A DNA stretch of 64,000 nucleotides from Aquimarina sp. TRL1 (GTDB lineage Bacteria > Bacteroidota > Bacteroidia > Flavobacteriales > Flavobacteriaceae): NCBI RefSeq assembly GCF_013365535.1, contig NZ_CP053590.1:796501-860500 (forward strand), written 5' to 3'. This document shows, one piece after another, positions 27,655 to 48,075 of this stretch (positions are counted from its first letter, which is position 1; every line of letters starts with the position of its first letter). The translations under genes were made by a program, and so were the position numbers. Below the pieces are notes generated by a model, which worked only from the letters and a program-made list of their open reading frames with translations, was not told the origin of the DNA and did no database searches.

Positions 27655-27853
27655 TTCCTATCGATTAATTCGCTGCAAAGTTAGCTCAATTGATAGAATT
27701 ACAACAAGGAACTCTTCTTTTTTCCATTCGTCTATCGAAAAAGACCATTCACCGAACTATAAAACCAACTGAACGAAATACAATCGTTTTTAGGAGAAAA
27801 AAGAAGAAATTTATTCTTGTAAATATTGATTATTCACCTTAACTTATGTTAAA

Positions 27854-28261
27854 ATGAGAGACTTAACTTTTTTATTAGTAGAAGATGACGAAATAGAAAG
27901 AATCAAATTTTCTAGAGTTTTACAAAAAAACCAATACCCGCATCAGATTATTGAAGCGACAAATGGAGAAGAAGCTTTAGAGGCATTAAAAGACAACGAA
28001 AGGGTCCCGGATGTTATATTTCTGGATCTAAATATGCCAAAAATGAACGGAATTGAGTTCATCAAAATTCTTAAAGCCGACCCTAAATGGATGTACATCC
28101 CTGTTGTAATTTTGAGTACATCTAATAACCATAGTGACCTAAAAGAATGTTATGAAACAGGCATTGCAGGATACATTGTAAAACCATTAAAATACCAGGA
28201 CTATGTGGCTAAAATAAAAAGGTTAGTTGAATATTGGAGTGAAAATGAGCTCATACAATAA
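27854..28261 (+). CDS. Single-domain response regulator (CheY-like)
   Basis: Receiver domain only, 135 residues. Acidic pocket VEDDE (residues 9-13), phospho-acceptor Asp58 in VIFLDLNMPKMNG, Thr/Ser in VILSTS and the conserved Lys in YIVKPLKY. It has no output domain, so it may be a phosphate carrier or sink, or act by protein binding. It resembles the Rcp1-type receivers found with phytochrome-like kinases. First gene of the seven-gene operon; 21 bp before the H-NOX gene. Confidence 0.92.
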   Translation: MRDLTFLLVEDDEIERIKFSRVLQKNQYPHQIIEATNGEEALEALKDNERVPDVIFLDLNMPKMNGIEFIKILKADPKWMYIPVVILSTSNNHSDLKECYETGIAGYIVKPLKYQDYVAKIKRLVEYWSENELIQ

Positions 28262-28282
28262 TAACTAAAACACCAACATAGG

Positions 28283-28828
28283 ATGAAAGGTATCGTATTT
28301 ACAGAATTTTTAGAATTGGTTGAGGAAAAATTCGGTCTGGAAATGGTTGATAAAATCATTGCACAATCAGACCTCCCTTCTAATGGGGTTTATACTGCAA
28401 TTGGCACGTATGATTTTTCAGAAATGCTCAGTTTGTTGAAAAACCTCAGCCAACAAACCAAAATAGCAATAGACGATTTGCTATTAGTATATGCAGAACA
28501 TTTTTTTAATGTATTGGCTAATGAATATCCGGATCTTATTAAACGATATAAAGATCCATTAGAACTATTAGCCTCTATAGAAAACCACATTCATGTAGAG
28601 GTACAAAAAATTTATCCAGAAGCTGAACTTCCTACCTTTCAAATCGTAGAAAAAACTTCGGATAAACTGGTTATGATCTACAAATCCAGCAGAGCTATGT
28701 ACAGCTTTGGGTTAGGACTAATGCGAAAAACATTCGAACATTTTGATTCAAAGGCTACAATAACGTACGAAAAACTTACATCAGATGGAACGGAAGTTAA
28801 ATTCAGCATTGTCAAAACCAATGGATAA
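28283..28828 (+). CDS. H-NOX haem nitric-oxide-binding sensor
   Basis: Protein of 181 residues, standard for bacterial stand-alone H-NOX. MKGIVFTEFLELVEEKFGLEMVDKII is the family's N-terminal signature. The proximal haem ligand is most likely His104 in NHIHVEVQKIYPEAELP. The haem propionate motif Y-x-S-x-R is Tyr133, Ser135 and Arg137 in MIYKSSRAMY. Such proteins bind NO at haem and, in facultative aerobes, control a partner histidine kinase. Here a kinase gene overlaps its end by 8 bp. Confidence 0.93.
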   Translation: MKGIVFTEFLELVEEKFGLEMVDKIIAQSDLPSNGVYTAIGTYDFSEMLSLLKNLSQQTKIAIDDLLLVYAEHFFNVLANEYPDLIKRYKDPLELLASIENHIHVEVQKIYPEAELPTFQIVEKTSDKLVMIYKSSRAMYSFGLGLMRKTFEHFDSKATITYEKLTSDGTEVKFSIVKTNG

Positions 28829-30419
28829 TTCAGAAATTGACATATTAAAAAGAGCCCTACAAAGAGAAAAAGCTGCCCGAAAACAGGCAGAAAAAATCCT
28901 GGAAAGCAAATCCAAGGAATTATTCTACCTCACTCAAGAATTACAAGAAACCAACGAGAAACTCGAAGATCTCGTTAATGAAAAAAAAACTGAGTTACAA
29001 GGTGTTTTTGACAATCTGGTAGACGCCTATGTATTGATGGACATCTATGGGAATGTCATAAACTTTAATGCGACAGCTACTGAGCTATTCGGATATGATA
29101 TCAAAGAAGAAAAACTCAATGTAGTACAACTTATTTATAAAGAAGATTATCAATATGCAATGAAGTCGTTCCAGCAACTGATCAACCAGGGGTTTTTCTC
29201 TGATTATCAAGCAAGAGTCTATACAAAACATAAAGGTGTTCGTACTGTACACATCAATGCCAGTATTATCTATAACAAAGAAAAAAAACCGATAGCTGCT
29301 CAGGGAATTGTTCGGGATATTACCGATGAAATTGCTCAAAAAAAAGCTTTTGAACAGCAAAAGAAACAATTAGATATTATTGTTAATAATTCTTCCCTGG
29401 GAATTGTCCTGGCACAATTCGGTAAAATTATTCAAACCAACGCTTCTTTCCAGGAATTATTAGGATATGAGAAGGAAGAGTTGCTGAATGTTGCTGTCAA
29501 AGATATTACCGTGGAAGAGGATCAACAAACCGGAGAAAGTCTACGACACCAACTCAATGCGGGGTTGATTGATCATTTTACTATTAACAAACGATATCAG
29601 CGAAAAGATGGCTCTTCTGTATGGGCAAAAACCAATGTAACTTCTGTAAAAAATGAGCAAGGAAGTATTACGCATCAAGTTGCCATTATTGAAAACATAA
29701 CTGAGCAATTGGCTTTTGAAAAGCAACGGGAGGAACTGGTAAAAGACCTCGAAAAAAGTAATCAGGAACTCAATGACTATGCACATATTGTATCTCATGA
29801 CCTGAAATCTCCTTTGCGAAGCATCAATGCTTTAGTCAATTGGCTCAGGGAAGATTATGAAGAGGTTTTAGATGATACGGCCATGAATCACATATCGATG
29901 ATTGAGACTACACTAGAAAAAATGGAGAACCTCATCAGTGATATTCTTAATTATTCCAGTGCCGGCAATAAAAATGAGATGGAAAATGAAGAGGTAGATC
30001 TCAATAAAACAATTAGAGATATTACCAGTACTATTTACATCCCTACACATATCACTGTTTCGACATTGCAACCACTACCGATAATAAAAGCTGATAAAAC
30101 AAAAATTCAGCAATTGTTTCAGAATATTATCGGTAATGCTATCAACTACAATGATAAAGACAAAGGAACTGTAGAAATCGACTTTGAGGATCACGGATCA
30201 TACTATGTTTTCTCTATAGAGGATAACGGAATAGGAATCGAGAAAGAATATCACGATAAAATCTTCAAAGTATTTCAGTCTTTGGGGAAACATGAAGATT
30301 CCACGGGAATAGGACTCTCCATTGTTAAAAAAATTGTAGACCTATACGAAGGGGATATTTGGTTAGAAAGCACCCCTACTATTGGAACTACCTTTTATTT
30401 CAGTATTAAAAAAAGATAA
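28821..30419 (+). CDS. PAS-PAS sensor histidine kinase, probable H-NOX partner
   Basis: I use the ATG at 28821 (MDNSEIDILKRALQREKAARKQAEKILE), overlapping the H-NOX stop by 8 bp. The upstream ATG at 28785 would add 12 residues that look like readthrough of another frame. 532 residues: coiled-coil linker (1-60), PAS1 (about 60-173), PAS2 (about 183-298, with the PAC segment), then HisKA with His326 in HIVSHDLKSPLRSI and HATPase with IGNAIN, DNGIGI and TGIGLSIVKKIV. The N-terminal ALQREKAARKQAEKIL segment is typical of kinases paired with H-NOX or NosP. No membrane segments, so the kinase is cytoplasmic. Confidence 0.9.
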   Translation: MDNSEIDILKRALQREKAARKQAEKILESKSKELFYLTQELQETNEKLEDLVNEKKTELQGVFDNLVDAYVLMDIYGNVINFNATATELFGYDIKEEKLNVVQLIYKEDYQYAMKSFQQLINQGFFSDYQARVYTKHKGVRTVHINASIIYNKEKKPIAAQGIVRDITDEIAQKKAFEQQKKQLDIIVNNSSLGIVLAQFGKIIQTNASFQELLGYEKEELLNVAVKDITVEEDQQTGESLRHQLNAGLIDHFTINKRYQRKDGSSVWAKTNVTSVKNEQGSITHQVAIIENITEQLAFEKQREELVKDLEKSNQELNDYAHIVSHDLKSPLRSINALVNWLREDYEEVLDDTAMNHISMIETTLEKMENLISDILNYSSAGNKNEMENEEVDLNKTIRDITSTIYIPTHITVSTLQPLPIIKADKTKIQQLFQNIIGNAINYNDKDKGTVEIDFEDHGSYYVFSIEDNGIGIEKEYHDKIFKVFQSLGKHEDSTGIGLSIVKKIVDLYEGDIWLESTPTIGTTFYFSIKKR

Positions 30420-30421
30420 TT

Positions 30422-31522
30422 ATGTATATAAATACGACCGATATTACAGAGATCATACAGTGTATTCGCCAGAGAAAATCAGTTGCCTCTACAACGATCT
30501 TATTCTTCATAGCAGAAGAAACTCCTATCGATATTACGGCTTTAATTGATGCTTGTAATGCACAGGAAATTGCTTGTGCCGGAGGAATTTTTCCGCAGGT
30601 TATATTTCAAAATAAGTCTTATAAAGAGGGAATCGTTATTAATTTTATAGAAGAAGTGGTCACTACATTTGTCTGCAATCATCTAGACACAAAAGACTTT
30701 AGTATCCCTAAGGTTTCTTTGGATAAAAATCACAGCTATTGTGCATTTACATTCGTCGATGGGCTTTCTTCAAACATCTCTCACTATCTATCAGAATTAT
30801 ATCGTCAATTCGGGAATAGCTCCTCTTACCTGGGAGGAGGGGCTGGAAGTCTAACCCTGATTCAGAAGCCATGTATTTTTACAAATGATGGTTTTTTTCA
30901 GAATGCGGCAATCTGCCTCCTTTTTAAATGTCAGGTTAGTATTGGTGTGAAACATGGGTGGAAAAAAATATCCGGTCCGGTCATAGCCACCAAAACCAAT
31001 AAAAATGTGATTGAACAAATCAATTGGATGAATGCATTAGATGTCTATAAAAGTATTATAGAGCCGGATTCTTCTACTACTCTGAAAATTGACAACTTCT
31101 TTGATATCGCTAAAGGGTATCCCTTCGGAATCATTAAGGAAGATGCTGAATGTGTGGTCCGGGACCCTATTGCCACTAATGAGAGAGGAGAGCTTATCTG
31201 TGTCGGAGAAGTTCCTGAAAATACTGTTCTGGATGTATTAAAGGGAGAAAACAATGCTTTGATTTCCTCTGCGGAACAAGCTGCCAGCCATGCACTAAAT
31301 GCCTCAAAACACCCTCAAAATGCATTTATTATCGACTGTATTTCCCGAGTATTATTTTTAGAAGATGAGTTTCCGAAAGAGCTCAATAGTACCGTACAGG
31401 CACTACAACAAAAGAGTAAAGATATTCCTATCGCAGGGGCACTGACTCTGGGGGAGATCTCTTCTTATAACGGATATCTGGAATTTTTTAACAAAACAAT
31501 TGTCGTTGGGCTTTTAGAATAA
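30422..31522 (+). CDS. FIST domain sensor, NosP-like
   Basis: Protein of 366 residues with FIST_N (about 20-200, including SSSYLGGGAGSL) and FIST_C (about 215-350, including GYPFGI and PIAGALTLGEISSYNG) domains. FIST proteins of the NosP group bind haem and NO and inhibit partner histidine kinases. The location between two histidine kinase genes and after an H-NOX gene strongly suggests a NosP-type role. I cannot identify the haem-binding His with certainty, so a different small-molecule ligand is possible. Starts 2 bp after the PAS kinase stop codon. Confidence 0.85.
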   Translation: MYINTTDITEIIQCIRQRKSVASTTILFFIAEETPIDITALIDACNAQEIACAGGIFPQVIFQNKSYKEGIVINFIEEVVTTFVCNHLDTKDFSIPKVSLDKNHSYCAFTFVDGLSSNISHYLSELYRQFGNSSSYLGGGAGSLTLIQKPCIFTNDGFFQNAAICLLFKCQVSIGVKHGWKKISGPVIATKTNKNVIEQINWMNALDVYKSIIEPDSSTTLKIDNFFDIAKGYPFGIIKEDAECVVRDPIATNERGELICVGEVPENTVLDVLKGENNALISSAEQAASHALNASKHPQNAFIIDCISRVLFLEDEFPKELNSTVQALQQKSKDIPIAGALTLGEISSYNGYLEFFNKTIVVGLLE

Positions 31523-31528
31523 AACAAT

Positions 31529-32689
31529 ATGGATATTAGTGACGTTTTGCAGATTTATGAGTTTTCGATGGCTATTGGTAATTCTTTAGACTATCAAACG
31601 AACTGTGAAAATTTTTTAAAACTCGTCCTTGCCAGAAAAAACTTAAGTGCCTGCTGGATCCTCAAAAAAGAAGTCAACGGGTATCTCCCTCAATACTCAT
31701 ACCCTTCTTATATCTCTAATTCGCTCCCATCCGTAGAGGAAGAAGAGGTTTCTTCTTTTTTTTCGCATCAGGTGCTAGCCACTGAACAGATTCCGGAAGT
31801 AATCTCCAAAGTATCTCCGGTTGCCATAGACCAGGGATCATTCTTGTTTTTTAATCTAAAAAACCACGGAGGGTTGTTCTTTTACAAAACACAACTTCCT
31901 GCTTTTTCTGATAAAGAAATTGCCCAGCTACAACCTATCATTAACAAGTTCATTCTTTCATTAGATGCCTGTGAATCCTTTTCCAAGCAAGAAAAACTAC
32001 TCAAAAAATTAGCCATTCAGAATCAGGAGCTCAATGATTATGCACATATTGTATCTCATGACCTAAAATCTCCCCTTCGGTCCATCAATACCCTGATCAA
32101 TTGGATACAGGAAGACAATCCTGAAACATTAGATCAAACGATTAAAGGATACCTGGATAAGATGGAGGATAACATAGAAAAAATGGATAATCTTATCAAT
32201 GGAATTTTAGAATACGCAGTAATAGACAAGAAATTAAAACATGTAAACACTAAGGTTAATTTATATTCATTACTCCAGGAAATCTTTACTCAGATTACGG
32301 TACCTGACCATATAAAAATCACTATCAAAAAACACATTCCCGTTCTGCATGCGGATCGTTTCAAGATGAAGCAGTTGTTTCAAAACCTGATCACAAATGC
32401 GATTCAAAACATGGATAAAGAAAAAGGGATTATCGATATCAGATATAAGGAATTTCCTTTATACTGGGAATTCGAGATAGAAGATAATGGCAAGGGAATC
32501 CCCAAAAAATATCACGATAAAATTTTCAAGATGTTTCAATCGCTAAGCACTCGAAAATCGTCAACCGGAATAGGTCTTTCTATTGTAAAAAAAATCATTG
32601 ACTATTACGACGGAAAAATCTGGATCACCTCTACCCCGGGTGTGGGCACCATATTCCATTTTACCATAAAAAAAAATAACCATGACTGA
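31529..32689 (+). CDS. Second sensor histidine kinase of the relay
   Basis: Cytoplasmic kinase of 386 residues. The N-terminal 150 residues form a GAF-like domain without recognised ligand residues. The HisKA/HATPase half is closely similar to that of the PAS kinase encoded upstream: the identical stretch NDYAHIVSHDLKSPLRSIN surrounds His177, and the ends TGIGLSIVKKI and YHDKIFK match as well. The two kinases are therefore paralogues with exchanged sensor regions. Its stop overlaps the start of the Hpt gene by 8 bp. Likely partner of the FIST protein. Confidence 0.88.
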   Translation: MDISDVLQIYEFSMAIGNSLDYQTNCENFLKLVLARKNLSACWILKKEVNGYLPQYSYPSYISNSLPSVEEEEVSSFFSHQVLATEQIPEVISKVSPVAIDQGSFLFFNLKNHGGLFFYKTQLPAFSDKEIAQLQPIINKFILSLDACESFSKQEKLLKKLAIQNQELNDYAHIVSHDLKSPLRSINTLINWIQEDNPETLDQTIKGYLDKMEDNIEKMDNLINGILEYAVIDKKLKHVNTKVNLYSLLQEIFTQITVPDHIKITIKKHIPVLHADRFKMKQLFQNLITNAIQNMDKEKGIIDIRYKEFPLYWEFEIEDNGKGIPKKYHDKIFKMFQSLSTRKSSTGIGLSIVKKIIDYYDGKIWITSTPGVGTIFHFTIKKNNHD

Positions 32690-33002
32690 AAAACCGAACC
32701 TAGATTACATCAAAGAGATTGCGGGAGGATCAGAAGCCTTCGAGCAACAGTTAATTGATATTGTCAAAAGAGAATTTCCTGCTGAAAAATCAGAATTTCT
32801 CAATAACTATAATGCAAAAGCATATCGAAAAACAGCTGAAAATGTACATAAATTAAAGCATAAAATCGGGATGATGGGGCTAGAAAACGGGTATACTCTG
32901 GCTATTGATTTTGAAGAGGAGTTGAAGCTAAATAAAACTACCTTATTTCCGAAATTTATGCTAACTTTAAGTTCAATAGAAGATTTTCTTATAAACCTTT
33001 AA
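32682..33002 (+). CDS. Histidine phosphotransfer (Hpt) protein
   Basis: Small helical protein of 106 residues. The Hpt motif is ENVHKLKHKIGMMGL, with His56 as the probable phosphorylated residue (family pattern H-x-L-K). Its presence implies a multi-step relay from the kinases to the receiver proteins, although neither kinase carries a receiver domain of its own; the CheY-like protein at 27854 could fill that position. ATG at 32682 lies within the last codons of the second kinase. Confidence 0.85.
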   Translation: MTEKPNLDYIKEIAGGSEAFEQQLIDIVKREFPAEKSEFLNNYNAKAYRKTAENVHKLKHKIGMMGLENGYTLAIDFEEELKLNKTTLFPKFMLTLSSIEDFLINL

Positions 33003-33015
33003 ACCAATAACCAAC

Positions 33016-33741
33016 ATGAAATGTATTATCATTGATGATGAAGAAACAGCAAGAGTTATTATAAGGCAATTGTGTAGTAATGCCAAGGATCTCGATGTAA
33101 TTGAAGAGTTCCCTAATGCAATACAAGCTATGAAATTTCTAAATAAAGAAGAGGTTGACCTTATTTTTCTAGATATTCATATGCCTGACTTTACTGGGTT
33201 TGATTTTATTCAGACATTAAAAAACCCTCCTAAAATTATTTTGACAACCTCTGACAAGGATTTTGCCTTAGAAGCTTTTGAATATGAGTGCATTGTAGAT
33301 TATCTGGTTAAACCAGTAACCTTACCTCGGTTCTTAAAAGCATTGCAAAAAGCAGAGGCAGCGAAGACAGTTACCCCAACCAAAGCTATTGAAAAAGAAG
33401 AAGCGACTTCTTCAAAAACAACGGATTCCGGAAATGATCTATATGTCAATATCGACAGAAGGCTTATCAAAATCGACATTCCCAGCATTTATCTCATTGA
33501 AGCAAAAGGGGATTATATCAAAGTAAAGACGGATCGCCAGAATTACACGGTTCATTCTACCTTAAAAAAGATTGAAGAGAAATTGCCTACGGATCTTTTC
33601 TTAAAAGTACATCGTTCCTATATTATCAATACTCAAAAAATTATTGATATTGAAGACAATAGTGTGTTAATTGCCAAAGATGTAATCCCGGTAAGTCGTT
33701 CTAACCGTCCTGAATTGATGAGGCGATTAAATTTACTCTGA
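33016..33741 (+). CDS. LytTR family response regulator
   Basis: Protein of 241 residues. Receiver domain (residues 1-120) with Asp53 in LIFLDIHMPDFTG, T/S in ILTTSD and the conserved Lys in VDYLVKPV. A charged linker follows, then a LytTR DNA-binding domain (about 140-240: IYLIEAKGDYIKVKTDRQNYTVHSTLKKIEEKL and FLKVHRSYIIN). It is the likely transcriptional output of the H-NOX/FIST relay. It ends only 16 bp before the convergent TPR gene and I see no terminator there. Confidence 0.93.
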   Translation: MKCIIIDDEETARVIIRQLCSNAKDLDVIEEFPNAIQAMKFLNKEEVDLIFLDIHMPDFTGFDFIQTLKNPPKIILTTSDKDFALEAFEYECIVDYLVKPVTLPRFLKALQKAEAAKTVTPTKAIEKEEATSSKTTDSGNDLYVNIDRRLIKIDIPSIYLIEAKGDYIKVKTDRQNYTVHSTLKKIEEKLPTDLFLKVHRSYIINTQKIIDIEDNSVLIAKDVIPVSRSNRPELMRRLNLL

Positions 33742-33757: not shown

Positions 33758-36700
33758 TTATTCTGACGGGCTTTCTGCATTCACTTCCGTTTTTAATGCC
33801 CGAATTCGTTTATCAAAGACTGGTTTTTTAAGGAAATACCATCTTAGTACCACCCCAACTTCAGAATACTCAAATCCAGCTGCTGTAGAAGAGGCGATAT
33901 TACTATACTTACCATAGGCGTGCATCTTGAATCTGTTTACCTGATACCCCAATTTCCCCTCTAATCGATATGTATTGGATCCCGCATCATCCTCGATGAA
34001 CTGTCTTCCTCCTGCTACATTAAAATGATAAAACCATTTTTGATCCTGCTGGTTTAGTATTTCTGCAAATACTTCTACTACATTAAATCGTTTAGGGCTA
34101 AAATAGAGTGCCGGATATTGATCTTTAAAAGATATGTATTGATAATTAACCCCTGCTTTTATTACCGGAGTATGCTTTATATTATAATAAAGCGATGTAA
34201 ATAACAAGTGGCGATCATTATCATCTGTTTGATTGGTATACATATATTGTGTGTACCACCCCAGTCCCATCGTAGAACTCAGATTATTATTAAGAAAATA
34301 ATGATTCATCAATATTTTTTCATTAATCAACTCAGCATTAAAATCTTGCAATTCTCTTTTTGCTCCTATTTCCAGATGTTGCATAGCCGAAGGTTTAGTT
34401 TTTAGCATAATTTCTCCAATGGATTCCATATACTCATTAGTATATGAATCTGCATTCGTAATTCCTCCTCTGGCTAACAGCGTTATTCTTCCATTAAACT
34501 TATATGATAAACCAACCTGCCCGTCATTCAAAGAAGCTTCATTTCTCGTGATATCATTTTTAGTATTTCTATATCGAACTCTTGTACCTATTGATAATTT
34601 AGTAGACAAAGGGATTTCTACTCTTACAGAGTTATTCATCGCTTTGTTTTCTCCATTATCTTTGGTGATTGCTACTTTTCCCTCTATATAGGGCATATGC
34701 GAGCGTTTCATTTTAATGAGTAGTTTTTCTGCATCTGGTTGCTTGGGATAATATGTGAGTGTTTTATACAGGTATTCGTATGTTTTCATATCATCTCCTA
34801 CTGCTCTGTAGGCATTGGCTATTCCTAAATTTCCATCGAAGGAACGTTCGTCTTTTGCTAATAACATTTTATAAAACTCCAATCCTAAGGTGTACTTACT
34901 AGCATACATGCCATATGCTGCTAACAAACTCAAAATTTTAGGATCTTCCGGGTAGTCAAATCGCAATTTATCTATTTCCATTTTTGCCTTTGAAAATTTT
35001 CGATTCCACAAAAGTGCCTGTACATAACGTTCTTGTGTCATCAGGTATACATCTTTGTTCTTCTCCTTATATATTTGTGCTTTTGTCCGGGCAGTATCTG
35101 CGATAGCCAACGCTTTTTTCTCTTTCTTATTCTTGTGCGCCACTAATGAAAGTCCAACCATCGACTGTATACTATCTACCGGACTAATCGCTAGAGCTTC
35201 ATAGACTTTTTGGGCTTGATCCATATCGTTTGTCATCAAGAAAATATTCGCCCTGTTTAATTGTGTATCCTTATCATTCGGGAAATCAACCAAGTTTAGA
35301 TCCAACATTGCCAAAGCTCTATCATATTCTTTGTCTTGTGCTAATTTATTAGCATATCCCAGGTGTACGTATTTTCTGGAAATTAGCGCATTTTTATTTC
35401 CTTTTTGGATGGTCAAAGCTCTATTGACATAATCTAATGCTTTTTCATATTCTTTCAGATTTGACAAGGTATTTGCATATCCTAAAACTGCTGAGAAACT
35501 CGTAGCATCTTCTTTCGTTAATCCATCATATAAGGAGGCTGCTTTTTTATATTTCTTGTCCCAAAGCAATGATTCTGCATGATTTAATTTTATTTCAAAA
35601 TCTTCTGGGTATTCTTCTAGTAATTTTTCAAATAACAGCACTGCTTTTTCGGAATCTCCTGAAAGCCCCACTGCTCTTCCATAACACAATCTGGCCGTTT
35701 TATTGTCTGGAAACCGTGTCAAAATATTTTTAAAAATAGCTCGTGCTTTTTCATACTTTCCCGTTTCTAATGCTTTAAAACCTTCTTTCATATTCTGCAC
35801 TGACAATATCGAATACACTTTCTCTGCATTTTTATTATCTTTTTTCAGCTCATATAATCGTGCTTTTTTCTGCATAATCTCTGGATCATTGGGTAGCTCT
35901 TTTTCATTTTCTTCTAATAATTCCAACGCTAGATCATAGTTTTTTTTCCTTGTCAACTCCTCTGCATATTCATTCCTCACAGTCCTTCTTAATATGCTTA
36001 CTTCTTCACTTTTTTGCACAGAGAGAATTTCATTTATATATGCCAACGCCTCAGCGTATGCTTTTGTGTGATATAAAACATCTACATAAGTCGTCATCAT
36101 AGGCAGTTCTTTTTTTACAGAGAGTACTTTCTTATAATAAGGAACCGATTCTGAGTATAATTGCTTACGGTATAGTGCCTGTGCATATAATGTGTTAAGT
36201 CGGATATCCTCTGGTGTTTGATGTAGTAAGCTTTCTAGAATTGGCATTGCTTGTTTAATATTATCTGTATACATCAATGCCTCTGCGTATGGTTTCATAA
36301 AACTCGAATTATCTGGGTGCTCTTTTCGTATTTTTTCAAACTGAACGACTGACTTATTATATTCGCCTAACTCCAATGACAATACAGCCTGTTGGATCTG
36401 TTTGTCCAAGAGAGAAGCTTTCCTCTCTTCTTCTATTTTTTTTTGACTCTCGACCTGCTCTCTCTTCTTTCTATTTTCTTCCTCATTTTTTTGTATTTGA
36501 ATATTTGCAATATTCAATTTTAATTCACTATCATTTGGGTAATCTATGACGTTAGCTTCTAGTTGTTGAATTGCTTTATCGTATTCTTTTTCCTTTCGTA
36601 ATTCATCTGCATACCCTAGCCGAATATATTTTCTGGATGTCATCGCATTAGGGTTTCCTGATTGAAGAGTCAAAGCTTTATTTACATATATTAAAGCTTC

Positions 36701-37114
36701 TTTATATTTTTTCAGGTTTGAAAGTGTATTGGCATAGCCTAAAATTGCAGGAAAACTATCTTCTTTTTCCTGTATCAATTCTCGATAATAGTTTTCGGCT
36801 TTTAGAAATTTCTTATTCCAGAGTAATGACTCTGCATAATTCAATTTAAACTCATAATTAGTGGGTTCTTCGGATAGTAACGCTGTAAAAATTTCGGTAG
36901 CTTTTTCCGGAGTTCCGGATAATCCTATAGCTCTCCCATAACACAAACGTGCTGTTTTATTATCGGGATACGTTTTTAGTATTTCTTCAAAAAAAAGGCT
37001 CGCTTTTTCAAACTTCCCTGATTCTAAATAAGAAAACCCTTCATTCATATCCTGAGCCTGTACACTCATAAAAAACAATAAAAAGAAAGGAGTAAGTAAT
37101 CTTTTGGTCATCAT
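33758..37114 (-). CDS. Very large TPR protein with C-terminal outer-membrane barrel (polysaccharide export-like)
   Basis: About 1118 residues if translation starts at 37114 (MMTKRLLTPFFLLFFMSVQAQ), which gives a proper signal peptide. An upstream ATG at 37135 adds seven residues. Numbering here is from the upstream ATG. Residues 30-800 are TPR-like repeats. The block at about 30-215 is repeated at about 449-638 with phrases nearly identical (PDNKTARLCYGRA, AESLLW, GYANTLSNL). A charged coiled-coil-like stretch lies at 218-240. From about 814 onward there are alternating beta strands fitting an outer-membrane barrel. The architecture recalls PgaA, BcsC and PelB exporters. It lies beside flippase and glycosyltransferase genes, so polysaccharide export is the best guess. 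Confidence 0.75.
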   Translation of the reverse strand: MMTKRLLTPFFLLFFMSVQAQDMNEGFSYLESGKFEKASLFFEEILKTYPDNKTARLCYGRAIGLSGTPEKATEIFTALLSEEPTNYEFKLNYAESLLWNKKFLKAENYYRELIQEKEDSFPAILGYANTLSNLKKYKEALIYVNKALTLQSGNPNAMTSRKYIRLGYADELRKEKEYDKAIQQLEANVIDYPNDSELKLNIANIQIQKNEEENRKKREQVESQKKIEEERKASLLDKQIQQAVLSLELGEYNKSVVQFEKIRKEHPDNSSFMKPYAEALMYTDNIKQAMPILESLLHQTPEDIRLNTLYAQALYRKQLYSESVPYYKKVLSVKKELPMMTTYVDVLYHTKAYAEALAYINEILSVQKSEEVSILRRTVRNEYAEELTRKKNYDLALELLEENEKELPNDPEIMQKKARLYELKKDNKNAEKVYSILSVQNMKEGFKALETGKYEKARAIFKNILTRFPDNKTARLCYGRAVGLSGDSEKAVLLFEKLLEEYPEDFEIKLNHAESLLWDKKYKKAASLYDGLTKEDATSFSAVLGYANTLSNLKEYEKALDYVNRALTIQKGNKNALISRKYVHLGYANKLAQDKEYDRALAMLDLNLVDFPNDKDTQLNRANIFLMTNDMDQAQKVYEALAISPVDSIQSMVGLSLVAHKNKKEKKALAIADTARTKAQIYKEKNKDVYLMTQERYVQALLWNRKFSKAKMEIDKLRFDYPEDPKILSLLAAYGMYASKYTLGLEFYKMLLAKDERSFDGNLGIANAYRAVGDDMKTYEYLYKTLTYYPKQPDAEKLLIKMKRSHMPYIEGKVAITKDNGENKAMNNSVRVEIPLSTKLSIGTRVRYRNTKNDITRNEASLNDGQVGLSYKFNGRITLLARGGITNADSYTNEYMESIGEIMLKTKPSAMQHLEIGAKRELQDFNAELINEKILMNHYFLNNNLSSTMGLGWYTQYMYTNQTDDNDRHLLFTSLYYNIKHTPVIKAGVNYQYISFKDQYPALYFSPKRFNVVEVFAEILNQQDQKWFYHFNVAGGRQFIEDDAGSNTYRLEGKLGYQVNRFKMHAYGKYSNIASSTAAGFEYSEVGVVLRWYFLKKPVFDKRIRALKTEVNAESPSE

Positions 37115-37463
37115 GTTATAGCTTTTGTTGTTCATTAACCATTACCAACAAAACACTTGGTTTGGGGTACGTACTCTGATAAACAATTATTCCCTTATTA
37201 CATCGTGTGTATTTCTCTTGTCTACTTTCCCTAACTCGACAATCTTTTTAGTACATCTATACTAAAAAATATGAAATCATACTAGATCACTCATATACTA
37301 CAATTTAGCTATATTTTTTTGTTTTCGAAACAATTCTCTCATTTTTTTAATCTATGCAATTCTACCGCTTATCTACACTAAAATGCAACTAAACGAATTA
37401 CTGCTGTCTCTCCTTGTTTTATGCTGCATATTTGTACCATATCAACCTATTAAACAAAACGTT

Positions 37464-37766
37464 ATGGCTCTTAAGATAACAAAAAACCAAGGGATATTTG
37501 AGATCAATGGTCCTATTAATACTAAGAATGCTAAGTCTTTGTTTGATCATTTCGAACAGCTTTTAGAGACCTCTGAGAGAATTATTTTATCCTTGGATCA
37601 TGTAAATACGATAGACGTTTGCGGTATTAATGCCTTAACTTCTCTATATAAGACTGCGGTAAAAAAGAATAAAGTTTTTTCGATTATTGGAAAAGAAAAC
37701 AATGCAATAAAAAGAATCTTTGCCCGAAGAAAAATAGAACATATTATCAGAAGGGATGTTGTCTAA
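37464..37766 (+). CDS. STAS domain protein lacking the phospho-serine
   Basis: Start set at 37464 (MALKITKNQGIFEINGPI), by alignment with the paralogue at 37861. The longer frame from 37383 would add a hydrophobic 27-residue stretch. About 100 residues with a STAS (anti-anti-sigma) fold pattern: LSLDHVNTIDVCGINALTSLYK. In SpoIIAA-like proteins a Ser follows D-x; here the position is Cys53. It may therefore not be phosphorylated by an anti-sigma kinase. Its role beside polysaccharide genes is unknown. Confidence 0.75.
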   Translation: MALKITKNQGIFEINGPINTKNAKSLFDHFEQLLETSERIILSLDHVNTIDVCGINALTSLYKTAVKKNKVFSIIGKENNAIKRIFARRKIEHIIRRDVV

Positions 37767-37860: not shown

Positions 37861-38160
37861 ATGAAATTACATATCTCTAACAACCTCGGAACCTATGAAA
37901 TTATAGGAAATTTTACTTCCAAAAACACGCATATAGTAAAAGACCATTTTGATTATCTGTTGAATCATTATGATGAGATTGTCATTAGCCTAAACAAGGT
38001 AAAAAGAATGGATGTAAGAGCTATTAAAGTATTACAGGTTATTTATCTAAAAGCTTTAAAAAGAGGTAAAGTCTTATTTGTTCTGGGGAAAGACAATTTC
38101 GTTATTACTTCTTTATTTGATGAAACAGGAATGAATCATATTTTTAGAGATGACTATTAG
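37861..38160 (+). CDS. Second STAS domain protein lacking the phospho-serine
   Basis: Paralogue of the protein at 37464, 99 residues. VISLNKVKRMDVRAIKVLQVIYLKALKRGKVLFVLG aligns over the STAS core, with Arg53 at the site of the usual Ser. Its last codons overlap the start of the flippase gene by 11 bp, which ties it to polysaccharide export genes. It could be a protein-protein adaptor in that machinery or a regulator; neither is shown by the sequence. Confidence 0.75.
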   Translation: MKLHISNNLGTYEIIGNFTSKNTHIVKDHFDYLLNHYDEIVISLNKVKRMDVRAIKVLQVIYLKALKRGKVLFVLGKDNFVITSLFDETGMNHIFRDDY

Positions 38161-39397
38161 TACTTACATCCCGAAATTGAGCGCTGAACAAAAATTCATG
38201 CTTAGTGTACTGATTGTTAATGCAGGTAATTATGTATACAATCTGGCACTGGGGAGAATTCTCGGCCCTGAAGCTTTTGCTGATGCTGCTATTCTAATCA
38301 CCTTATTATTAGTGCTCTCATTCGTAGCGATGACTTTCCAGTTAGCTACCACAAAATTTTCTGTGATTTTTGAATCTAGTATTTTCCGGGGGTTTATCAA
38401 TATTATGTATCGCTATTCCCTGATTACAGGAATTTTAATCGGACTCTCATTTATTATTTTCTCTAAGGAGTTACAAGCTATTTTTCACACACAGTCATCC
38501 ACCATTTTTATCATTTTTGGTCTGGGTATCCCAATTTATTTTGTGATGAGTGTCAATAGAGGAATCTATCAGGGTATCAAAAAATTTGACCGATTAGCCT
38601 ATACATATCAGGGAGAAATGATTTCCCGACTGGTTATTACATTGGCATTACTATATCTACTTCCCATTCCTTCTTCTATGGTAGTAGCTATGGGTATCGC
38701 TTGCTCTTTTATTTTTGGATTACACCCTTTTAGAACAAAAGATATTACAACCAACTTTTCTATCACTCTTCCTTCTTCTCATAAAAAACAAGTATATCGT
38801 TTTTTTACTCTTACTGCTTTTTATGAACTGACTCAGATTATTATTAATAATAGCGATATATTACTCGTCAAACATTATTTTGAAGGATATGAAGCTGGAT
38901 TATATGCTTCTCTGGCGTTAATTGGTCGGGTTGTTTATTTCGTTGCCTGGATGTTTGTCATGTTATTATTACCCAAAGTTGTACAGAAACAAAAAGAAGG
39001 CAAAAATACTACGAGCATTTTGTTTTCCTATGTCGGATATATTAGTATCTTGGCTTTTATCATTGTTCTGAGTTGTTATTTATTTCCCGAATTAGTAATC
39101 CAATTAATGTTTGGTTCAGAATATCTAAGTATGGCACCTCTTTTATGGAAATATGCTATTGCTACTTCCTTATTTGCCTTATCCAATATTTTTGCATATT
39201 ACTTTTTATCACTGGATCATTATATCCCTGTACTCTTATCCGGAATATTGGGAATTACTCAGGTGCTTCTTATTACATTATTTCATCAATCTCTTACTCA
39301 GGTAGTGCATATGCAGATAATTGCAATGGCTATTTTATTGGTTGTACAGCTCTTGTTTTTCTTCAGGAAAAACGCTGATAGTACTTCAAAGGACTAG
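38150..39397 (+). CDS. Polysaccharide flippase (PST / Wzx-like, MATE-type)
   Basis: Integral membrane protein of 415 residues with about 12 hydrophobic segments and almost no soluble regions. LSVLIVNAGNYVYNLALGRILGPEAFADAA near the N-terminus is characteristic of oligosaccharide flippases. It should move lipid-linked saccharide or polymer across the inner membrane. It overlaps the STAS gene upstream. A PelG-like role is possible but the sequence does not decide it. Confidence 0.85.
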   Translation: MTISTYIPKLSAEQKFMLSVLIVNAGNYVYNLALGRILGPEAFADAAILITLLLVLSFVAMTFQLATTKFSVIFESSIFRGFINIMYRYSLITGILIGLSFIIFSKELQAIFHTQSSTIFIIFGLGIPIYFVMSVNRGIYQGIKKFDRLAYTYQGEMISRLVITLALLYLLPIPSSMVVAMGIACSFIFGLHPFRTKDITTNFSITLPSSHKKQVYRFFTLTAFYELTQIIINNSDILLVKHYFEGYEAGLYASLALIGRVVYFVAWMFVMLLLPKVVQKQKEGKNTTSILFSYVGYISILAFIIVLSCYLFPELVIQLMFGSEYLSMAPLLWKYAIATSLFALSNIFAYYFLSLDHYIPVLLSGILGITQVLLITLFHQSLTQVVHMQIIAMAILLVVQLLFFFRKNADSTSKD

Positions 39398-39637
39398 GGT
39401 GTTTTCTTACCTCACTTTTTTGCCTGATGCTATCTCGCATAAAAGAACTCTTTACCTCCTTTTGTACAGCATCTCTCCAAACTCATACTGTTAGTTCATT
39501 CATCGCAAATACATTCAACTACAGCAATTTGCATTTTACCGACAGTATTATTCACTTCACCCAAAAACAATCAATAAAACCCTGATTTTTAAACACTTTT
39601 GTATTAAATCCTTATAAACCTAAATAATCGTATTGTT
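39398..39637 (+). promoter_or_regulatory. Leader region before the GT4 gene
   Basis: This 240-bp stretch has no gene. The bases just before the ATG at 39638 read CTAAATAATCGTATTGTTATG. A very similar run, CCTAAATCGAATTGTTATG, precedes a tiny reading frame at 40914, so the two leaders may share a regulatory or translational element. Confidence 0.35.
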
Positions 39638-40846
39638 ATGAAATTAGCCCTTGTCACAGCTTATCCGCCTAGTAAAGTTACCTTAAATGAATATGCGTAT
39701 CATCTGGTAAAGCACTTCAGACAGCATCAAGATGTTTCTGAGATAGTTTTACTGACCGATATTACAGCAGAAGCTGCCAATACGCATCTGGAGAGTCAAG
39801 GGTGCACAGTAACTGTACTTCCTTGCTGGAAATTTAATAGTTATAAAAATATTTTTAGCATTATGAAGGCGATAAAAACAACGGAACCTGACGCCATTCT
39901 TTTTAATCTTCAATTTATGAAATTCGGAGATAAAAAAATTCCGGCAGCACTGGGACTATTAGCTCCTTTGTTTTGTAAACTTTCTAAAATCCCTACGATT
40001 GTATTACTTCACAATATCATGGAAGAAGTTGATCTGGAAAAAGCTGGTTTTACGAATAATTTTATTGCGAAGAAGCTATATACTTTTATTGGGACTACCC
40101 TAACTAAATTCTTATTAACAGCAGATATCATTGCTGTTACTATGCAAAAATATGTAACCATTCTACAAGATAAATACAAAGCAACTAATGTAGTATTAAT
40201 TCCTCACGGTACTTTTGAAATCCCTGAACGCCCTATTTACTCCTTACAGGAAGGATCACTAAAAATAATGACTTTTGGTAAATTTGGTACTTATAAAAAA
40301 GTAGAAATCCTTATTGAAGCTATTGAAAAGTTACGATCCAAAACCGGTATAGATGTAGAAATAGTAATCGCAGGAACAGATAATCCAAACGCCAGAGGAT
40401 ATTTACAAAAAATGGAAGAAAAATATTGGTATGTGCCTCAATTAACCTTTACGGGGTACGTAGCAGAGCAGGATGTTCCCTCTTTGTTTAGAGAAAGTGC
40501 TGTGGTAGTTTTCCCATATACAGCAACAACTGGAAGTTCCGGTGTTTTGCACCAAGCAGGAAGCTATGGGAAAGCAGTTGTCATGCCTGATCTTGGAGAT
40601 TTAAGCCTCTTAACTAAAGAAGAGGGGTATGATGGAGCCTTTTTTACCCCAGAAGATATTGATAGCCTCGCTAATGCAATAAAAAAAATTATTACAGACG
40701 ACACCTATAGAATACAATTAGGAAAAACAAACTATCAAGCTGCAACCGCATATCCAATTAGTACCATTGCTGATATGTACATCAAACAATTTTTGAAAAT
40801 ACAAACCTCTAAATGGGAAAATGAGTTAATAAAAATAGATTTTTAG
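39638..40846 (+). CDS. Glycosyltransferase family 4
   Basis: Protein of 402 residues with a GT-B fold. N-terminal domain: KLALVTAYPPSKVTLNEYAYHLVKHF. C-terminal domain: LKIMTFGKFGTYKKVEILIEAI and the nucleotide-sugar region VVVFPYTATTGSSGVLHQAGSYGKAVVMPDLG. Likely transfers a sugar from a nucleotide donor to a growing polysaccharide or lipid carrier. Lies downstream of the flippase gene, same strand. Confidence 0.9.
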   Translation: MKLALVTAYPPSKVTLNEYAYHLVKHFRQHQDVSEIVLLTDITAEAANTHLESQGCTVTVLPCWKFNSYKNIFSIMKAIKTTEPDAILFNLQFMKFGDKKIPAALGLLAPLFCKLSKIPTIVLLHNIMEEVDLEKAGFTNNFIAKKLYTFIGTTLTKFLLTADIIAVTMQKYVTILQDKYKATNVVLIPHGTFEIPERPIYSLQEGSLKIMTFGKFGTYKKVEILIEAIEKLRSKTGIDVEIVIAGTDNPNARGYLQKMEEKYWYVPQLTFTGYVAEQDVPSLFRESAVVVFPYTATTGSSGVLHQAGSYGKAVVMPDLGDLSLLTKEEGYDGAFFTPEDIDSLANAIKKIITDDTYRIQLGKTNYQAATAYPISTIADMYIKQFLKIQTSKWENELIKIDF

Positions 40847-47099: not shown

Positions 47100-47277
47100 A
47101 AGAGTAGGTCTTTAATTTGGGTATACATAAAGATACAACAAAGCTTTGATAACCAACAAATTATACATCTACACTAAAAATCATTTCACCGACAGCAAAA
47201 TACCATTAATCGAATTATTCCATTTTTGGGAGGCAATCAGCGGTAATTTTGAGGTATAAATCTCAAATAATATTACT

Positions 47278-48075
47278 ATGAAAACCGGAATAATCATACC
47301 CTGCTACAATGAAGAAAAAAGATTAAATGTTCAAATTTTTTTAAACTTCATTACAGAAGATAACGAATTTCACTTATGCTTTGTCAATGACGGAAGTAAA
47401 GACAACACAATCACTGTTTTAAGAGAAATACAAAATTCTAATCCAGAAAAAGTGAGCGTTATAGATATGAAAAAGAACTCCGGGAAAGCTGCTGCTGTAC
47501 GGGCAGGTGTACGTTATTTAAGTAATAGAGGAGATATCGATTTTATTGGATTTATAGATGCTGATTTATCTACAGATTTTAATGATTTCAATGACCTGTT
47601 ACATACCTTAAAAACAGAAAATAATTTAGCTATGGTATTTGGATCCAGATCTAAAAACGGGGCTCAAAAAATAAAAAGAGATGCCTTCCGAAGTATTTTT
47701 TCTATGATCATACAAACAATGGTCAACTTTATATTGCACTTACCTATTCAGGATTCTCAGTGTGGAGCTAAGGTGTTTAGAACCGAATTAGCCACTGTAT
47801 TATTCGCTAAAAACTTTTTTAGCAGATGGTTATTCGACATAGAAATGTTCCTGCGTTTAAAAAAATATTACGGAAAAGAAGATGTTATGAATCGTATCTA
47901 TGAGCAACCTCTAAAAAGATGGGTTCATGTAGATGATTCTAAAATCGGAATTAAAGATGCAATAAAGATTCCATTCAGGTTAGCTTCTATCTGGGTAAAT
48001 TATAACCTTACAGATCTATTATCTATGGAAATGACATATAACACTGTAGAACCTAGAATCGAAGTATACGCATAA
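47278..48075 (+). CDS. GT2 glycosyltransferase (dolichyl-phosphate glucosyltransferase-like)
   Basis: Protein of 265 residues. GT-A fold motifs: IIPCYNEEKRL (residues 5-15), FVNDGSKD, GFIDADLSTD (the metal-binding DxD-like site) and QDSQCGAKVFRTELA. The closest pattern is the ALG5/polyprenyl-phosphate glucosyltransferase type. It could supply polyprenyl-linked sugar for the GT-C-like protein encoded divergently next to it. Confidence 0.85.
   Translation: MKTGIIIPCYNEEKRLNVQIFLNFITEDNEFHLCFVNDGSKDNTITVLREIQNSNPEKVSVIDMKKNSGKAAAVRAGVRYLSNRGDIDFIGFIDADLSTDFNDFNDLLHTLKTENNLAMVFGSRSKNGAQKIKRDAFRSIFSMIIQTMVNFILHLPIQDSQCGAKVFRTELATVLFAKNFFSRWLFDIEMFLRLKKYYGKEDVMNRIYEQPLKRWVHVDDSKIGIKDAIKIPFRLASIWVNYNLTDLLSMEMTYNTVEPRIEVYA

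Follow-up and report, generated by a model that had tools for sequence, protein, structure and literature searches.

We wanted to understand how two sensor proteins encoded side by side could act on a single output in a flavobacterium. The question is raised by a stretch of 64,000 nucleotides from Aquimarina sp. TRL1 (contig NZ_CP053590.1, positions 796,501 to 860,500), called the window below, in which seven genes on the + strand (27854-33741 of the window) encode, according to the open reading frame (ORF) list and Pfam, a lone receiver (REC), an H-NOX protein, a histidine kinase (HK1), a FIST protein, a second histidine kinase (HK2), an Hpt protein and a LytTR response regulator. We consider it fairly probable that these genes, a set found across the family, make up a split phosphorelay of four steps in which two sensors feed a single transcriptional output. 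H-NOX would bind nitric oxide (NO) and alter the activity of HK1, and FIST would sense a second cue and alter HK2. The two kinases, sharing one common partner interface, would both phosphorylate the lone REC, from which phosphate would pass to Hpt and then to LytTR. Phosphorylated LytTR would bind tandem CCATTCGTC-like boxes 21 bp apart and control, positively or negatively, its own operon and a small regulon, namely the neighbouring polysaccharide genes and a secreted protein of the DUF6923 type. This proposal draws on gene content, conservation, acceptor residues, kinase paralogy, exchange of a cassette, and a DNA box that follows the LytTR gene, all read from sequence.

The operon, its distribution and its predicted wiring

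An earlier note, made from the letters of the window, had proposed the seven genes with their domains, their tight packing and an operon combining two sensors and two kinases with Hpt and a LytTR output. These proposals held up. ORFs and Pfam agreed on every gene (Table 1), only Hpt being under its cut-off, and the intergenic gaps are 21, -44, 2, 6, -8 and 13 bp in gene order. The -44 stems from the first ATG taken by the ORF finder for HK1 (28785); an in-frame ATG at 28821, leaving an 8-bp overlap with H-NOX, is the likelier start. The two sensor genes are the sole HNOB and FIST matches of the 5.4-Mb genome (E up to 0.001).

The closest relative of the window H-NOX in the PDB is 6bdd (275.7 bits over 179 residues), which we take to be the H-NOX of Kordia algicida. 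As the note had pointed out, haem His104 and the Y-x-S-x-R motif (Y133, S135, R137) are all present. H104 is conserved in 145 of the 146 family H-NOX homologues, Y133 and S135 in all 146 and R137 in 139, with K or D in the other seven. F142 is presumably the counterpart of the O2-binding Tyr of Tt H-NOX, on a numbering offset that we assume. The lone homologue with a replaced proximal His (Tyr, locus L162) belongs to an operon with two kinases and without FIST. At hinge position 71, the 146 proteins have Ala (69, the window among them), Gly (70) or Ser (7), in both forms of the operon.

We then looked at how far the arrangement extends. H-NOX was found in 146 of 397 genomes of the family and FIST in 116, with both in 93. 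For gene neighbourhoods, 149 H-NOX loci were examined, window included; these are the listed family H-NOX matches minus one weak match below the cut-off (G469:C2). Operon chains were built with a rule of gaps under 400 bp, which cut L170 and L172 short. By this rule, HK-FIST-HK follows H-NOX in 77 of the 149 loci, to which at least L170 must be added, so that an order found only by chance in this strain, which the note had allowed for, is excluded. HK1 and Hpt without FIST were found in 57 loci, variants counted. The exact seven-gene string is the commonest single form (68 loci) and the exact five-gene order without FIST and HK2 comes to 49, the rest of the 149 loci being contig ends, losses or other arrangements. 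In a sample of the whole class, H-NOX was present in 72 of 395 genomes and FIST in 104, and five genomes, including that of the window, carried the two genes no more than about 3.5 kb apart on the same contig (by eye); in one of these five (G271), the FIST frame is broken and lies on the opposite strand. Twelve further loci of the class sample gave the seven-gene order twice, in L165 from another family and in L166 from the same family, and the other ten, all from other families, are without it. Thus the note's statement that H-NOX and FIST in one operon are unusual stands for the class at large and falls for the family, where this is the commonest single form (68 loci vs 49). Apart from these operons, several genomes, among them G462, G494, G611 and G647, have three to four FIST genes clustered on one contig; these four have no H-NOX match.

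The wiring was approached through the acceptor residues and through fused relatives. In all operon homologues parsed, the phosphate acceptors are intact: Asp58 of REC in 142 of 142, His56 of Hpt in 133 of 133 and Asp53 of LytTR in 125 of 125. Separate histidine kinase, REC, Hpt and REC-output proteins with intact acceptor residues, by which a phosphorelay is recognized, are thus present. In the ten class-sample loci without the seven-gene order, the kinase adjoining H-NOX is long in seven and of 445-452 amino acids in three. All five long ones that were scanned (L197, L199, L200, L201, L203) are a single HisKA-HATPase-REC-Hpt chain, and a LytTR gene comes next in L200 and L205. Because kinase, REC and Hpt follow each other in these fused chains, the same order is predicted for the split genes, which most likely form a relay from HK to REC, Hpt and LytTR.

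To see how the two kinases relate, 222 kinase halves were placed in one tree, in which the 77 HK1 of FIST operons were all on one side (support 0.42) and the 77 HK2 all on the other (0.92). Among the 36 other kinases of the window genome, the best match of HK2 is HK1 (53%, 252 bits), the next one reaching 39% and 143 bits. Six DHp positions, which we assume to be partner-contact sites, were compared. They read SRSALW in 73 of 77 HK1, and the six commonest HK2 patterns, accounting for at least 66 of 77, differ from this only by S or N at the third and A, T or S at the fourth site. In the window genome, HK1 and HK2 agree at five of the six positions, and 28 other kinases of this genome, once aligned, have at most three of the six in common with either. 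This indicates that HK1 and HK2 are paralogues with near-identical predicted partner-contact residues. In their ATPase part, identity is slightly higher within genomes than between them (0.460 vs 0.445). Concerted evolution of the two kinases was dropped as evidence, since DHp identity within genomes is not above that between genomes.

The FIST protein and the FIST-HK2 cassette

The note had called the FIST protein NosP-like, which is doubtful. The window protein has the FIST and FIST_C domains that serve as the domain criterion for NosP; its score on the NCBIfam NosP equivalog model is 36.1 bits against a cut-off of 450, and the usual FIST type of the family (P0121), with 59.9 bits, is also under it. 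Similarly, HK2 scored 75.5 bits on near_NosP_CTERM (NahK/ErcS), the cut-off of which is 400, and only the general kinase part aligned. The window FIST belongs to a divergent clade of 11 sequences (support 1.0), and most of its named relatives come from Flavobacteriaceae, Aquimarina and Winogradskyella among them. A C-terminal HNQT His is found in all 74 aligned FIST of the usual type and never in the window type, which has F, L or Y instead; H178, C151 and C260 are present in 11 of 11 sequences of the window type. The AlphaFold model of the window FIST (predicted local distance difference test 95.3) matches human FBXO22 with a template modelling score of 0.42-0.47. FBXO22 is the best structural match for the models of both types, and that of the usual type also weakly matches the chorismatase and cyclic-amide-hydrolase folds. 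The FBXO22 match supports a FIST fold for the modelled window protein.

Next, 76 family operons, five of them of the divergent FIST type, were compared part by part. Between divergent and usual types, FIST is on average 21% identical and the N-terminal half of HK2 16%, and both form their own clades (support 1.0). The kinase half of HK2 does not separate by type (49% to the usual type vs 53% among the usual type), and neither do REC (63 vs 69%), H-NOX (64 vs 63%), HK1 (47 vs 53%), Hpt (46 vs 48%) and LytTR (67 vs 68%). As FIST and the N-terminal half of HK2 separate and the other parts do not, these comparisons indicate that the sensory module was swapped and the relay kept: the divergent FIST and the sensory half of HK2 replaced the usual version together, and the kinase half of HK2 stayed. 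Presence of the whole cassette also varies. On a tree of four other operon proteins (70 operons with seven genes, 54 with five), the distribution of the cassette requires 24 changes, compared with a mean of 40 and a minimum of 32 in 200 label shuffles, and 24 changes mean that FIST-HK2 comes and goes often. Eight kinases of FIST-less operons, including one from the same genus (L133), fall on the HK2 side of the kinase tree with mixed support, and for this reason a loss of FIST-HK2 through recombination between the two kinase domains was not adopted. Outside the family, contigs of Fulvivirga and Flammeovirgaceae (L043, L045) combine the divergent FIST with a kinase and LytTR; H-NOX is absent from the stretch covered.

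What FIST senses bears on the inputs of the relay. It may be no NO sensor at all and respond to another ligand such as free haem, a redox state or a metabolite, so that the operon would integrate NO with a different cue; this is compatible with the proposed relay and we give it close to an even chance, on the lower side. The low NosP score, the loss of the HNQT His in a type with its own invariant H178, C151 and C260, and the exchange of FIST along with an HK2 sensory half whose versions are so dissimilar all argue for it. On the other hand, the literature read does not establish the haem ligand of NosP, so the loss of the HNQT His may be irrelevant, and the presence of H-NOX in 93 of the 116 FIST genomes fits a common NO theme.

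The box before the operon and the LytTR gene

Enriched words upstream of REC were CCATTCGTC and its neighbours, which aligned as a tandem repeat of 21-bp period at a median of 107 bp from the start codon. With at most one mismatch, CCATTCGTC lies within 400 bp in 104 of 142 loci. LytTR regulators recognize pairs of direct-repeat sites of about 9 bp. In the window, CCATTCGTC is followed one period later by CCATTCACC (Table 1), and this 21-bp-spaced direct repeat, new in this analysis, is the predicted operator of the operon. According to the part of the source seen, AlgR, a LytTR regulator of P. aeruginosa, binds the core CCGTTCGTC (PMC4064291); CCATTCGTC is one base off this box (8 of 9 bases the same).

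For searches, every second of 97 box promoters was taken (49), 11 were removed by eye and the remaining 38, window not among them, were aligned into model R1; 36 of these 38, from other species, gave a position weight matrix (PWM), used with a threshold of 13 bits of our choice. A plain 30-base pattern with two mismatches was rejected as too loose (52 matches vs 30 in a reversed control), which is why R1 was used. The best R1 match in the whole genome is 27722-27762 in the window. In the 149 loci (2.4 Mb), the PWM found 265 sites of at least 13 bits, compared with 0.2 on average for 20 matrices with shuffled columns, a control that does not keep base order. Among these sites, 139 lie before REC (115 loci) and overlap in part with the training set, to which the remaining sites do not belong: 40 precede a secreted-protein gene near the operon (in 35 of the 50 loci having the gene), seven a STAS-like gene, seven a glycosyltransferase and three a flippase gene, and 28 are without a nearby gene start.

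In the window genome, R1 gave ten matches at E up to 10, the first being the operon promoter. The third is located 4.2 Mb along the contig, 82 bp upstream of a gene; over 462 amino acids, the product of this gene has 61% identity with the protein encoded directly after the operon in L060, which carries DUF6923 and a type-9-secretion tail. The fourth (47166-47200, E 0.0005 in the window) precedes a glycosyltransferase gene of the polysaccharide locus adjoining the operon.

We next asked what the box travels with. R1 was positive in 116 of 146 genomes with H-NOX and in 13 of 251 without, a contrast inflated by relatedness within the family, and at least two matches were found in 72 and three genomes, respectively. 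Window left out, the box is upstream of REC in 106 of 123 operons bearing LytTR. Where the operon stops after Hpt and LytTR is lacking (L052, L054, L062, L084, L136), none of the five promoters has the box. All four such genomes that were fetched (L277-L280) have their strongest R1 match elsewhere, 42-56 bp before a second REC, and that REC is followed some 270-300 bp on by a LytTR 61-63% identical to that of the window, no Hpt frame being seen between them; these genomes therefore have two such receivers each. Conversely, both genomes with three R1 matches and no H-NOX match have a LytTR orthologue, with 76% identity in G508 and 62% in G536, the latter only 73% complete, so that H-NOX may simply be missing from its assembly. 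In G508 (99% complete), boxes immediately precede a nearby receiver-like frame and also immediately follow LytTR. Altogether, these comparisons suggest that the box goes, for the most part, with the LytTR gene rather than with H-NOX.

Several points weigh against the relay and its box, beside the limits given above for the shuffled matrices, the genome contrast and G536. The long in-family kinase of L167 has REC and no Hpt match at the cut-off used, and beside the three short kinases of the class sample (L202, L204, L206), none of REC, Hpt and LytTR is labelled over the stretch displayed. The DHp domains of HK1 and HK2 do not co-vary within genomes (0.500 within vs 0.506 between, permutation p 0.98). 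LytTR is present without the box in 17 of the 123 operons; in L110 and L182, the box has stayed and no LytTR gene is next to it. The R1 E-values in the window genome are modest and rough (0.002 to 0.04), stricter filters leave no R1 match there at E up to 0.001, and the second match (G000:C1:5148293, L268) has no ORF of at least 50 amino acids starting within about 570 bp downstream.

Some of these points would fit a box that is the site of another LytTR regulator or a general promoter element, linked to the operon by common ancestry. Flavobacterial genomes are related, both R1-positive genomes without H-NOX just described have further, more distant matches to the LytTR query, and L110 and L182 speak for it as well. 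However, the box is gone where LytTR has left, is found with LytTR at its new place, and is present where LytTR was kept without an H-NOX match, so we regard this explanation as unlikely. Two parallel two-component systems that do not converge, one from H-NOX-HK1 to a CheY-like lone REC acting without transcription and one from FIST-HK2 to Hpt and LytTR, are suggested by the kinase directly after each sensor and by L045, a FIST-HK-LytTR set that has neither H-NOX nor a labelled Hpt (in L043, which is similar, there is also a REC-HATPase protein), but are improbable given the near-identical contact residues of the two kinases, the fused HK-REC-Hpt chains beside H-NOX and the 57 FIST-less loci that keep HK1 and Hpt, 54 FIST-less operons also having REC and LytTR, so that Hpt and LytTR serve H-NOX-HK1 there.

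Starting from the convergent relay, a further reading can be put forward tentatively, with rather more doubt than belief. The operon would be a plug-in integrator, in which a fixed core (H-NOX-HK1, REC, Hpt and LytTR) gains and loses the FIST-HK2 input and the sensory part of this input, FIST plus the N-terminal half of HK2, was exchanged as a unit against a very different version, the kinase half being kept. The divergent FIST would sense something other than the ligand of NosP. The cell would weigh NO against this second cue, and a haem-fed regulator resembling AlgR would then switch a secreted protein as well as surface polysaccharide.

Related systems and neighbouring genes

Most work on NO-sensing H-NOX and NosP-type proteins concerns Proteobacteria. 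We take the genes of the Shewanella and Vibrio relays to be called HnoB, HnoC and HnoD, and NosP is said, in a title of Nisbett 2019, to modulate the H-NOX network in Shewanella. In the parts seen of a 2022 review, these H-NOX/HK phosphorelays likewise have a stand-alone H-NOX beside a kinase and pass the signal through further proteins; the outputs described there are cyclic di-GMP (c-di-GMP) enzymes or LuxU, while here REC, Hpt and a DNA-binding LytTR are in the same operon (PMC8738867). The same parts have FIST genes near hnox in the neighbourhood network of one sequence group, and describe NO pathways whose targets are c-di-GMP, quorum sensing or a small number of gene-expression routes (PMC8738867). 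NosP-NahK and NosP-NosK, as far as the source was covered, resemble the second arm in having a FIST protein beside a kinase without a recognized sensory domain (PMC12570481). Here, in contrast, FIST and kinase are far under the NosP and NahK/ErcS models, have no c-di-GMP domain and are joined to H-NOX. Legionella pneumophila also has H-NOX and FIST-type proteins in one organism, with Hnox1, Hnox2 and NosP affecting biofilm and called functionally non-redundant in the text consulted (PMC11237717); by locus number (lpg1056, lpg2459, lpg0270) their genes are far apart (PMC8738867, in part), whereas here the H-NOX and FIST genes are in one operon. AlgR of Pseudomonas aeruginosa shares the LytTR domain and 8 of 9 bases of its core box with the system described here, and controls an exopolysaccharide, alginate, in the portion of the paper seen (PMC4064291). 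It is paired with AlgZ, with no haem sensor relay, and tandem boxes of 21-bp period are a feature of the system here.

Among split phosphorelays, Spo0F-Spo0B-Spo0A similarly has kinases, a lone receiver, a phosphotransferase and a regulator on separate chains, with several kinases converging. Unlike it, the genes here form one operon with gas-sensor inputs, Hpt and a LytTR output. In the titles and abstract beginnings of the open-access literature searched, subscription papers being outside this scope, the operon, the relay and the box were undescribed. The operon would represent a family-wide flavobacterial system that has a DNA-binding regulator at its end, and its predicted operator is good enough for target genes to be listed from sequence. 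This makes testable what NO controls in flavobacteria, whether two sensors converge on one relay and how a sensory cassette can be exchanged while the relay stays intact.

Table 1. Features of the operon, its predicted operator and the adjoining polysaccharide locus (window positions)
Feature	Position	Strand	Basis and remarks
Predicted LytTR operator	CCATTCGTC 27724-27732 + CCATTCACC 27745-27753	+	Direct repeat, 21-bp period, ~100 bp 5' of REC gene
Lone receiver (REC)	27854-28261	+	Pfam Response_reg 88.5 bits; proposed first phosphate acceptor
H-NOX, predicted haem NO sensor	28283-28828	+	Pfam HNOB 135.8 bits, cut-off 25.5
HK1, histidine kinase adjoining H-NOX	28821-30419	+	Pfam: PAS x2-HisKA-HATPase
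FIST protein of divergent type, putative second sensor	30422-31522	+	FIST 80.9 bits, FIST_C 83.7 bits
HK2, HisKA-HATPase	31529-32689	+	N-terminal 163 aa peculiar to divergent FIST type; kinase half HK1-paralogous
Hpt phosphotransfer protein	32682-33002	+	Pfam Hpt 20.8 bits, under cut-off 24.6
LytTR response regulator, proposed output	33016-33741	+	Response_reg 67.9 bits, LytTR 74.8 bits
TPR protein	33758-37135	-	Pfam TPR; convergent to operon; starts polysaccharide locus; C-terminal part like outer-membrane beta-barrel by eye
STAS-domain protein	37383-37766	+	Pfam STAS
Polysaccharide flippase	38150-39397	+	Pfam Polysacc_synt_3
Weak operator-like triple repeat before glycosyltransferase at 39638	39497-39544	+	PWM 13.3 (threshold 13); R1 6.8 bits, E 0.56; pattern with 2 mismatches
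Family-1 glycosyltransferase	39638-40846	+	Pfam Glycos_transf_1
Operator-like repeats before family-2 glycosyltransferase 47278-48075	47162-47215	+	21-bp period; PWM 13.6

Finally, we looked at the genes around the operon. In the window, its neighbourhood has, by Pfam, the TPR protein, STAS, the flippase, glycosyltransferases and a glycoside hydrolase. TPR homologues lie beside 45 of the 149 family H-NOX loci and a STAS-like cluster beside 18 (by eye), and a TPR, flippase or glycosyltransferase cluster was found in 46. The secreted-protein cluster, present in 50 loci, is a loose one with DUF6923 and DUF4114 members. The DUF6923 gene was found in none of 12 genomes without H-NOX, a count that shows little, as it has no positive control. 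In 15 of the 149 loci (L048, L049, L061, L189, L193 and others), genes for a molybdopterin oxidoreductase (1173 amino acids) and a nitrite/sulphite reductase-like protein lie upstream, and these are read as nitrate assimilation genes.

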